Shown here: positions 3,115 through 5,924 of the stretch, in pieces
Position numbering within the stretch: position 1 is the stretch's first letter
How the letters are laid out: every line of letters begins with the position of its first letter
From: Bacteriovorax sp. MedPE-SWde
GTDB taxonomy: Bacteria > Bdellovibrionota > Bacteriovoracia > Bacteriovoracales > Bacteriovoracaceae
Assembly: GCA_001874305.1 (NCBI GenBank)
Contig: MPCU01000006.1
Coordinates: forward strand, 1 to 64,000
Reading direction: 5' to 3'
DNA: 64,000 nt
Program-made: the position numbers and the translations under genes
The notes under the pieces: generated by a model
Seen by the model: only the letters and a program-made list of their open reading frames with translations
What the model was told of the DNA's origin: nothing
The model's database searches: none

Positions 3115-4176
3115 CTAATAGTCTTGGAATTGAGAGTTAAATCTCAAGTCCCCGCTTTGCAGGTGTCTAATATCATCAATTCCGTACTTCATCATAACGA
3201 GACGATCAAGACCGAGACCAAAAGCAAAACCATTATACTCATCAGGATCAATTCCACCTGCTCTTAAAACATTTGGATGAACCATTCCACAAGGAAGAAG
3301 CTCTACCCAACCAACGTGCTTACAAACAGAACATCCCTTACCAGAGCAAACCTGACATTTAATATCCAGCTCAAATCCTGGCTCAACAAATGGGAAGAAC
3401 CCTGGGCGAAGCCTTACTTCAACATCTCTCTTAAAGATCTCTTTAAGAGTTTGCTTCATAAAGTAAATGAGGTTAGCAACAGATATATCCTTACCAACCA
3501 TCATTCCTTCTAATTGTTGAAATACCATCTCGTGTGAAGCATCTGTTCTTTCACATCTATAAACTGTCCCTGGAGCGATGAATTTAAATGGAGGTTTTCT
3601 CCCCTGCATTCCTCTTACCTGAATAGTTGAAGTGTGAGTTCTTAAAAGGTGCTTATTTCCCTCTTCAGATTTCTCATCCTTAAACCAGAATGTATCCTGC
3701 ATATCTCTAGCTGGGTGATCACCTGGAATATTTAGTGCCTCAAAGTTATAGAACTCTGTTTCAATATGTGGACCATCTAGAATATCAAATCCCATTGAAA
3801 GGAAGATATCTTCGATTTCTTGGCGTATAAGAGTTCTTGGGTGAAGACCACCGTGTCTCACAGACTTTTCTTTAATTGCGTCTGTAAGAGTTATATCAAT
3901 TTTATTCTTAGCAAGCTTTTCATTGATTGCAGCAAGTTCAATACCTGCGAGCTTGTCAGCGATAGCAATCTGCATTTTGGTCTTTATTTCATTGGCCTTT
4001 GGACCAATTGCTTGTCTTTCCTCTGGAGTGGCGTTCTTAAGAGATTTAAGAATTTCAGAGACCTGACCTTTTTTGCCAAGGTAGCTAGATTTATGGTTAA
4101 GAACATCCGGCTGAGTATTGAGATTTTCAAGCTCAGAAGAGAATGTCGAATATGCGCTTTCTAATTTTTCAAGCAT
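3115..4176 (-). CDS. pheS: Phenylalanine--tRNA ligase alpha subunit
   Basis: Catalytic alpha chain (353 residues) forming Phe-AMP and transferring Phe to tRNA-Phe. An N-terminal coiled-coil arm (about 1-90) is followed by the class II aaRS core. Motif 1 region contains GPHIETEFYNFEALNIP, motif 2 contains the stretch YRCERTDASHEMVFQQLEG, and motif 3 is GLGLDRLVMMKYG near the C terminus. A four-cysteine cluster (CQVCSGKGCSVC, about 280) is a common zinc-like insert in bacterial PheS. ATG start at 4176 has AAAGGAAAG a few bases upstream. First gene of the pheST operon; the structured-RNA segment at 4266-4668 lies upstream on the same strand. Confidence 0.97.
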   Translation of the reverse strand: MLEKLESAYSTFSSELENLNTQPDVLNHKSSYLGKKGQVSEILKSLKNATPEERQAIGPKANEIKTKMQIAIADKLAGIELAAINEKLAKNKIDITLTDAIKEKSVRHGGLHPRTLIRQEIEDIFLSMGFDILDGPHIETEFYNFEALNIPGDHPARDMQDTFWFKDEKSEEGNKHLLRTHTSTIQVRGMQGRKPPFKFIAPGTVYRCERTDASHEMVFQQLEGMMVGKDISVANLIYFMKQTLKEIFKRDVEVRLRPGFFPFVEPGFELDIKCQVCSGKGCSVCKHVGWVELLPCGMVHPNVLRAGGIDPDEYNGFAFGLGLDRLVMMKYGIDDIRHLQSGDLRFNSQFQDY

Positions 4177-4265: not shown

Positions 4266-4307
4266 AAGAATTAGAAAGGGCCTGTAAGCTAAAAAGTCGA
4301 CAGGCCC
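4266..4307 (-). terminator. Terminator of the candidate structured RNA
   Basis: Stem GGGCCTGT (4278-4285) with ACAGGCCC (4300-4307), eight perfect pairs with a 14-base loop. On the minus strand the stem is followed by TTTCTAATTCTT. Because the T-run lies on the left, it fits minus-strand transcription, that is, an RNA coming from the 4.3-4.7 kb segment and ending before pheS. Confidence 0.7.
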
Positions 4308-4668
4308 ATAATAGATCTCATGCTAGTAAGTAGAGTGGTTCGAGGGGTCATGCCCCAGGTATGCGCTCGCCATAAAGAATCCGTGGCAAACGGCGAATAG
4401 TGAATGTATAGAAATCATATTAGGAACGCTATGGCCCCAAAATACCCTCCTGAAGACTCGCGACCCCTTTCGCTTCAAAGCTCACCACAATGAAGTGACC
4501 CGTTCGTAAATCCCGGAGATGGACCCCAGGAAAGAGGTTGGTCTTACACCGCTTTGGCAATTCTTAACACATAGATAAAAAATCTGAAGCGCAAGAACTT
4601 TGCTCCAAGACACTTTCGAAATCTTGTCGCCCTTTCCACGGGTTTCTATCCATTCAATTTAGCACCGT
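4266..4668 (-). ncRNA. Candidate long structured RNA, unknown class
   Basis: This stretch has no convincing ORF and is clearly richer in G and C than its surroundings, which in an AT-rich genome is typical of stable RNA. On the minus strand I can pair: CACGG with CCGTG (4668-4664 with 4641-4637); a GAAA-capped hairpin CAAGA/TCTTG (about 4626-4606); an extended arm in which GTGG and AGGGGTC (4486-4460) meet GACCCCTCG and CCAC (4350-4335); an inner pair GCCATA/TATGGC; and a terminal CCGT/ACGG hairpin (4394-4382). It ends in the terminator at 4266-4307. The 5' end is not defined. None of the signatures of RNase P RNA, tmRNA, SRP RNA or 6S RNA is present. The class is unknown and the transcript itself is inferred. 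Confidence 0.45.
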
Positions 4669-4681
4669 GACACATCTCACA
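4666..4681. promoter_or_regulatory. CRP-like palindrome
   Basis: CGTGA-N6-TCACA on the plus strand (TGTGA-N6-TCACG on the minus), one base off the perfect CRP/FNR-family consensus TGTGA-N6-TCACA. It sits at the right edge of the structured segment. It could be an operator for the RNA or simply the base of an RNA hairpin (GTGA/TCAC). No CRP-family gene is in the window. Confidence 0.3.
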
Positions 4682-4813
4682 AAAGCCTTTTTTCACATTG
4701 TTTTTGTCTCGTACTCCTCAAATATAGTTCATGCCTATAAATACCTAGGTTTTAGCTGAGCTTTATTAAGAAATACCACTATAGACTTGAGGAGAGGTAG
4801 GTAAATTATAAAT

Positions 4814-4867
4814 ATGGAATTAGTTCAAAATGTGAGAAGAAGTGCCCATGATAATGGGAATAAATAA
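4814..4867 (+). CDS. Possible 17-codon mini-ORF or small RNA ending at a terminator
   Basis: ATG at 4814 opens 17 codons (begins MELVQNVRR, ends DNGNK) and the TAA is immediately followed by the terminator stem at 4868. A purine-rich GAGGAGAGGTAGG lies upstream, but the last AGG is 12 bases from the ATG, farther than ideal. A small RNA of about 100 bases, or a leader-peptide arrangement without a downstream gene, is equally possible. Coding status is unproven. Confidence 0.2.
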   Translation: MELVQNVRRSAHDNGNK

Positions 4868-4900
4868 GGAGGTCTTAGAGACCTCCATATTCTTTTTATT
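4868..4900. terminator. Rho-independent terminator, probably bidirectional
   Basis: Stem GGAGGTCT (4868-4875) and AGACCTCC (4879-4886) with a three-base loop, then ATATTCTTTTTATTT on the plus strand. In the minus direction the stem follows the stop of the heptose kinase gene (4896) and is trailed by TTATTTATT. Confidence 0.75.
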
Positions 4901-5924
4901 TATTATGCATTTTCTTAGAAATTATATCAAAGTAATCAAGTAGCTCTTCTTGATTTACAGTTGCTGTTCCCATTTTACCAACAACAACACCTGCACCACA
5001 GTTACTTACCCATGCCGCCTCTTCAAGAGTCGCACCTGTTTGTAGAGCAGAAATAAGAAGAGAAATAGAGGTGTCCCCTGCCCCTGAAACATCGTAGACT
5101 TCATTGGCAACAGTTGGAATATAGCGAACGGTGTTATCAAGCTTGGTATCAACAAGGGCCATCCCTTCTGCACCAAGAGTAATAACAAGTTTCTCTAACT
5201 CTAGATCTTTAACTAAGATGGCCGCCATTTCGTCCACATCAGTAATGTTATAGTAACCTAGTGCCTTAACCATAATCTCCGCTTCATTTCTATTTGGTTT
5301 TAAAAGGTTAACACCTTTATAGAATTCAGGAGGTGTTGTTCTACTTGGATCTACAGCAATTAACTTATCTGAGTCCTTATATTGAACAACAAGCTTTTCA
5401 ATAACTTCTTTAGTTAATGTACCCTTTGCATAATCTTCAAGGATTAGAGAGTCGTGACCTTCACTTAAGTCAGTAATTCTTGATACAAGTCTTGATTGAA
5501 CTTCATCATTTATTGGTTTCTTAGATTCGTAGTCAATACGACAAATTTGTTGAGTATCAGTAACAACTCTTTCTTTGAAAACAGTTGGACGCTCTTCACA
5601 ACGAACGATTCCCCAAGTTGATATCTCATTCTCTTCAAGAAGGTTTTCAAATATATTGGCGTTTTGATCATCACCAACAACTCCACAAAGAGTTGATTTA
5701 ATATTAAGTGATTTTAAATTATCAGAAATATTTGCAGAGAGACCTAATTTTAGCCACTCTTTTTGTACATCTAATAATGGTACAGGGGCCTCAGGAGAGA
5801 TCCTACTTACTACTCCACTTGTGTACTTATCAATCCCAACATCCCCTACAACAAGGATTGGTTTTAATGATTCAAACTTAGAAACGATTTCTGAAAATCT
5901 TTCTTTTGAGATACTTAGTGTCAC
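4896..5924 (-). CDS. rfaE1: D-glycero-beta-D-manno-heptose 7-phosphate kinase (RfaE/HldE kinase domain only)
   Basis: PfkB/ribokinase-fold kinase of 342 residues that phosphorylates heptose 7-phosphate at C1 for ADP-heptose and LPS inner-core synthesis. The family hallmark SRISPEAPVPLL follows the N-terminal GDVGIDKY, and the ATP and catalytic-base motif DVSGAGDT is near the C terminus. E. coli HldE fuses this domain to a nucleotidyltransferase. Here the polypeptide stops after the kinase, so an ADP-transferring partner must be encoded elsewhere. GTG start at 5924 follows directly on the TAA of the heptosyltransferase, with GGAG upstream, so the two are translationally linked. Confidence 0.88.
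   Translation of the reverse strand: MTLSISKERFSEIVSKFESLKPILVVGDVGIDKYTSGVVSRISPEAPVPLLDVQKEWLKLGLSANISDNLKSLNIKSTLCGVVGDDQNANIFENLLEENEISTWGIVRCEERPTVFKERVVTDTQQICRIDYESKKPINDEVQSRLVSRITDLSEGHDSLILEDYAKGTLTKEVIEKLVVQYKDSDKLIAVDPSRTTPPEFYKGVNLLKPNRNEAEIMVKALGYYNITDVDEMAAILVKDLELEKLVITLGAEGMALVDTKLDNTVRYIPTVANEVYDVSGAGDTSISLLISALQTGATLEEAAWVSNCGAGVVVGKMGTATVNQEELLDYFDIISKKMHNK

Follow-up and report, generated by a model that had tools for sequence, protein, structure and literature searches.

Analysis of the window, a stretch of 64,000 nucleotides from Bacteriovorax sp. MedPE-SWde, led to the identification of what is very probably a free-standing RNA gene, which combines a variant c-di-GMP-I aptamer with a structured domain specific to the family Bacteriovoracaceae and possesses its own terminator before pheS. 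The predicted gene of ca. 380 nt lies on the minus strand at about 4655-4270; both ends are approximate, the 3' end being placed at the terminator and the 5' end deduced. This is close to the bounds of 4266-4668 given in an initial annotation of the same DNA. The interval bounded by pheS (3115-4176, minus) and by a sugar-kinase-like gene (4896-5924, minus) is devoid of ORFs of at least 60 amino acids on either strand, and the G+C content reaches 0.49 at 4301-4500 as compared to ca. 0.31-0.43 in the flanks, in agreement with the ORF-free, G+C-rich region described in that annotation. The minus-strand terminator that it proposed corresponds to a hairpin at 4307-4278 (GGGCCUGU...ACAGGCCC) followed by the U-rich sequence UUUCUAAUUCU, and hairpins trailed by a T-run are located at the equivalent place in most relatives. 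The folding energy of the region does not differ significantly from that of shuffled sequences on either strand (z = -1.6, with 10 of 100 shuffles equally stable), so the complementary arms alone prove nothing; the structure is accepted as real because the homologues covary strongly. The RNA's own promoter in the window is weak. A shared sigma-70 promoter at a fixed distance is not significant across the family, single genomes do have good sites, and a search for a FliA-type promoter for the RNA gave none. The kinase gene and the RNA are separated by a stretch with a hairpin (4868-4886) that reads as a terminator on either strand. An ORF of ca. 177 amino acids, present between the two genes in 16 of 43 relatives (e.g. 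L003, 939-1472), is missing from the window (4660-4895), which has lost it.

The 5' third of the RNA, for which the initial annotation could name no class, is a diverged c-di-GMP-I aptamer. The best-conserved stretch among the first homologues, AAACCCGU..GGCGA..CGAAAG..GGAGCAAAG..UUGCC, resembled this aptamer, and a cmscan of 126 bases matched the c-di-GMP-I riboswitch family RF01051 to 4641-4553 on the minus strand with 25.8 bits (E = 0.0014), which falls short of the gathering score of 35 bits. A comparison with Rfam, suggested earlier as a check, therefore had a divided outcome: the sub-threshold match emerged from the short scan, and default and larger Rfam scans of the window gave no match at gathering thresholds. 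The default scans overlook the aptamer because its score is under the cut-off and it is lost at the filters. In a whole-genome search with RF01051 only a place elsewhere was reported, with 15.8 bits. At the syntenic place in the relative G011 the score is 36.5 bits, above the gathering score, and RF01051 used alone, with no model of the family, matches G011, G026, G033, G074, G057 and G018 at the same site past the kinase gene; pheS comes next in G033, G057 and G018, and the contig of G074 ends just after the RNA. In agreement with the initial annotation, which had found no match to either, the RNA is neither RNase P RNA (RF00010) nor tmRNA (RF00023), which gave no match at this place and whose genes are both located elsewhere in the genome. 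A phage origin was considered as well and gave no match. That the RNA belongs to an entirely unknown class is hardly credible; the window's lack of an Rfam match at gathering thresholds would fit such a class, but the RF01051 match, the reciprocal models and the contact residues described below contradict it.

The aptamer (domain 1) occupies 4646-4545 on the minus strand, including the Rfam part, and shares with RF01051 (GEMM-I) the P1-P2-P3 layout, the GAAA tetraloop, the contacts G20, A47, A48 and C92 and the covarying helices. ACCCGU (4643-4638) forms the 5' strand of P1 by pairing with GCGG (4552-4549). The P2 hairpin (4626-4606) carries the tetraloop (CGAAAG, 4618-4613), and both partners change in seven of its eight helix pairs when relatives are compared. 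GCAAAG (4603-4598) contains the ligand-stacking adenines A47 and A48 in Vc2 numbering (PMC3764141, PMC4744006), the covarying helix P3 spans 4598-4559, and UUGCC (4560-4556) harbors the ligand contact C92; the three residues are present in 45 of 45 family sequences. The Vc2 positions are our own mapping, made via the Rfam alignment of the window. In an alignment of the 45 sequences with a covariance model, which is fitted to the structure and thereby biased in its favor, 95.7% of the cells are paired, versus 34-46% for slid structures, and both partners vary in 17 of the 24 aptamer pairs, such double changes being seen in 262 cells versus 69.5 +/- 8.0 in shuffles. Stem P1 varies little. The seed pairs covaried already in a plain MAFFT alignment; the first MAFFT alignments of the aptamer (A3 and A4), being out of register, were excluded.

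Ligand-contact roles have been described for G20, A47 and C92 (PMC4744006, PMC3764141), and these residues as well as A48 are each invariant in the family (45/45). For the c-di-GMP-I class, C44-G83 is described as a conserved or universal interhelical pair (PMC3764141, PMC4744006), whereas here position 44 is A in all 45 sequences and position 83 is U in 44 of them, so that a Watson-Crick C-G pair is absent. Because C44-G83 is replaced we file the RNA as a variant and not as a plain member of the class. We read the A-U combination as a compensatory change by which the interhelical pair would be kept in another form; the joint change alters a contact called universal in the class and accounts for the failure of standard annotation to detect such genes. 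The RNA further differs from RF01051 members in the rebuilt internal loop of P2 (GA opposite GA or AA), in the new second domain and in the lack of a regulated gene after it. P2 is one pair longer. The GAAA tetraloop is conserved. Its receptor has the sequence CUAAG...UAUG in many relatives but departs from this in the genus of the window, where the window itself has CUUCAG...CUAUG. The low Rfam score, the altered P2 loop and the altered receptor could point to a decayed aptamer that is kept for another structural role and does not bind c-di-GMP, but this is very unlikely, since decay would not keep G20, A47, A48 and C92 in 45 of 45 sequences, nor change both partners of the interhelical pair jointly.

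Homologues of the RNA were first sought by comparing nucleotide sequences of relatives, and five genomes, including the window's own and G063 (E = 7e-4), yielded convincing matches; another BLAST match (L007) was discarded as a chance antisense match within a protein gene. Covariance model R1, built from six family sequences and refined to R2, matches 44 of the 129 Bacteriovoracaceae genomes, of which 42 strongly, with E values from 1e-29 to 4e-7; the matches to the other two, G162 and G039, are at chance level. A model of domain 2 alone (R3) found two more, G021 and G016, missed by the first R1 scan, which brings the homologues to 44 family genomes. The weak R1 or R3 matches in G162, G039, G028, G070, G025, G185, G181 and G024 were judged to be chance. 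Each genome carries a single copy apart from G156, whose assembly is contaminated to 9% and has two. For about two thirds of the 129 genomes the models gave no match; in these the RNA is lacking or has diverged beyond recognition. In the reciprocal direction, R1 and R2, made from the family only, recover independent RF01051 sites in other families of the phylum (best E = 3e-8); on 17 other loci searched alongside they gave nothing significant.

Domain 2 covers 4545-4453 on the minus strand. Its P4 arms (4545-4531 with 4471-4453) enclose a hairpin at 4530-4512, the 3' strand of the possible pseudoknot P0 and hairpin P6 (4495-4473, loop GUGGUGAGC). Common to the relatives are P4, which brings AAGAC..CUUCUUU near GAAAGAAGG..GUCUUU, the P6 loop GUGGNGAGC and a subsequent GGGAGG. 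A structure-free alignment of 36 sequences has 86% of the domain 2 cells paired, versus 40-57% when the structure is slid, and contains 136 cells with changes on both sides versus 48 +/- 7 in shuffles. Both domains thus covary strongly across homologous loci, a check that the initial annotation had proposed, and its claim of a structured, lineage-specific RNA is confirmed by this covariation. In both genomes found with R3 the aptamer is located directly upstream of domain 2 (R2 E = 1e-19 in G021 and 4e-15 in G016), which indicates that the two domains travel together. The whole RNA is followed by pheS in G021 (L207); at the G016 locus (L208) neither the kinase gene nor pheS occurs within the 2.5 kb examined. 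The two domains may also be connected by base pairing: ACCCGU can pair with GCGG or ACGG just past the aptamer (P1) or with ACGGGU in the P4 loop (4503-4498, P0), and these pairings are mutually exclusive. All four central positions of P0 form standard pairs in 34 of the 36 genomes, but its strands hardly vary, and a permutation test of the duplex gave no genome-specific matching signal; the P0 pseudoknot is at most a plausible candidate.

The gene neighborhood bears on whether the RNA acts in cis, as a c-di-GMP riboswitch that controls terminator read-through into pheST. The kinase gene is upstream on the same strand in 41 of 43 loci, and pheS follows on the same strand in 31 of the 39 loci with more than 1 kb of sequence (slightly less than 1 kb in one of the 31); G004, G001 and G063, for example, have the RNA upstream of pheS, at the same site as in the window. 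This arrangement would suit a cis-acting switch, and c-di-GMP-I riboswitches with long expression platforms are known (PMC11218506). Such control is nevertheless very unlikely. The RNA has no pheS next to it on the same strand in nine genomes (G003, G043, G015, G023, G066, G029, G026, G042 and G011): in G003 it precedes a different gene, in G023 it adjoins pheS on the opposite strand, and in the seven others there is no pheS within ca. 1.5 kb. Besides, pheS has its own promoter-like site, TTGATT-17-AATTAT (4243-4215, minus), located past the RNA's terminator and with the same motif in G004. Because of this site and the nine copies without an adjacent pheS, we conclude that the RNA is not a pheST leader. 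In G003 (L050 / L004), which belongs to the window's genus, the RNA lies between protease-like and rlmN-like genes, and its place before the rlmN-like gene reads as a relocation of the RNA gene.

The merRNA of Bdellovibrio, mentioned only as an analogy in the initial annotation, turns out to have the same ligand class as the window's aptamer. Genome G187, which we take to be that of Bdellovibrio bacteriovorus HD100, was not matched by R1, and R2 gave E = 0.23. The sole RF01051 site of HD100 (1,073,868-1,073,951, minus) falls within merRNA as published, and exactly one such site occurs in 21 of 24 genomes of the genus. In HD100, merRNA occupies 1,073,741-1,074,185 on the minus strand (445 nt); it is massively expressed in the attack phase. 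Karunker et al. reported that they saw it conserved only within the Bdellovibrio lineage, and they proposed that it is a c-di-GMP store (PMC3627812). The RNA described here resembles merRNA in that it is a stand-alone RNA from the same phylum, contains a single c-di-GMP-I aptamer, occurs once per genome and has its own terminator and no downstream regulated gene. The two differ in gene neighborhood and in the position of the aptamer, which is well inside the HD100 merRNA and at the 5' end here. On inspection, no common sequence beyond the aptamer and no domain 2 were found in the HD100 merRNA. The Bacteriovoracaceae RNA can thus be regarded as a distant counterpart of merRNA, a likeness that concerns the class of the aptamer and the stand-alone architecture, and it probably works like merRNA. 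It would be transcribed as a separate unit and would bind c-di-GMP in the manner of merRNA. In our incomplete coverage of the literature no published description of it was found.

If the likeness extends to function, the aptamer could serve as a sponge or store that soaks up c-di-GMP and releases it later, as proposed for merRNA, with domain 2 contributing stability only. The shared aptamer class and stand-alone design, the massive attack-phase expression of merRNA (PMC3627812) and the single copy per genome speak for this role, which we hold to be possible but would not bet on. Domain 2, however, equals the aptamer in conservation and covariation and is accompanied by a mini-ORF with a codon-like pattern, which exceeds what a sponge needs; given the conserved domain, a role as sponge alone is less likely, and there are testable parts to mutate.

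This mini-ORF follows domain 2. AGGAGG (4451-4446, minus) resembles a Shine-Dalgarno sequence, with GGAGG conserved in nearly all relatives, and at 4440-4429 the minus strand reads UUG GGG CCA UAG (M-G-P-stop). Start and stop are kept in 36 of 42 relatives, with UUG or AUG mostly 3-5 nt past GGAGG and a stop within three sense codons. The general pattern is UUG-GGN-CCN-stop, and its variation is codon-like, occurring at wobble positions: the encoded forms are M-G-P (18), M-D-P (9) and M-G-I (3), with M-E-P, M-G-N, M-G-K, M-F, M-I and M-stop once each, and the stops are UAA (20), UAG (13) and UGA (3). For the 12-nt form the entropies by codon are 0.44, 0, 0 / 0, 0.88, 1.72 / 0.61, 0.76, 1.71 / 0, 0.2, 0.95, highest at third codon positions. 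In a similar count a mini-ORF was present in 31 of 40 sequences versus a shuffled mean of 3.7, a null that ignores shared ancestry and concerns a pattern noticed before testing. G016 has AUG GGU CCU UAG; G021 has no minimal ORF. Dimerisation via GGNNCC was considered in place of a mini-ORF and rejected, as few members are palindromic. Translation of the mini-ORF is a lead only. Bacterial minigenes, i.e. ORFs of two or three codons such as mg2 of axe-txe, likewise combine a strong Shine-Dalgarno site with a start, one or two sense codons and a stop (PMC8708949); the present one differs in its location, a putative riboswitch RNA instead of an mRNA leader, in the mostly used UUG start and in that it would mostly encode -Gly/Asp-Pro-stop. 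If translated, the pattern would constitute a new kind of riboswitch output.

For the action of the RNA we propose the following mechanism, which seems to us the likeliest one but as a whole is tentative. Binding of c-di-GMP would close stem P1 of the aptamer, and as P1 competes with P0 for the ACCCGU strand, the ligand would alter the presentation of domain 2, including that of the ribosome-binding site and the three-codon ORF. The RNA would then itself act as an effector that senses c-di-GMP, instead of switching pheST. The more specific form, in which switching between P1 and P0 opens and closes the ribosome-binding site of the M-Gly/Asp-Pro-stop ORF and the RNA is a c-di-GMP-gated minigene, we consider rather unlikely. 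If it were true, the c-di-GMP level in the predatory cycle would govern the trapping of ribosomes or tRNA by an orphan RNA, or else the protection of this RNA by itself.

Stand-alone c-di-GMP-I RNAs are spread over the phylum, and in the Bacteriovoracaceae the aptamer is always joined to the second conserved domain. In several other families of the phylum a single c-di-GMP-I RNA is located before a queE-like gene (L018, L019, L022-L024, L028 and L031-L032), and in several of these queE-associated loci GAAGAGG...CCUCUUC arms flank the aptamer, which is another stand-alone architecture. A second type of RF01051 site within the family (L034, G041:C29:2320-2391, 45 bits) is non-syntenic and lies directly before an ORF; it is possibly an ordinary cis riboswitch. 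Finally, the Bdellovibrio merRNAs (L100, L029, L025 and 18 other loci) contain a short ORF after AGAGGUG, reading MEGTNTYKDWFHSP* and variants thereof, ca. 130 nt past the start of the aptamer region. This ORF persists in most of them, the stop is lost in four and the frame is broken in one (L104), and a conserved peptide was rejected as it breaks down in 5 of 21 genomes. Because the stop or frame is lost in these five genomes, the conserved GGAUUGGUUUCAUUCCCCUU may instead be an RNA element.
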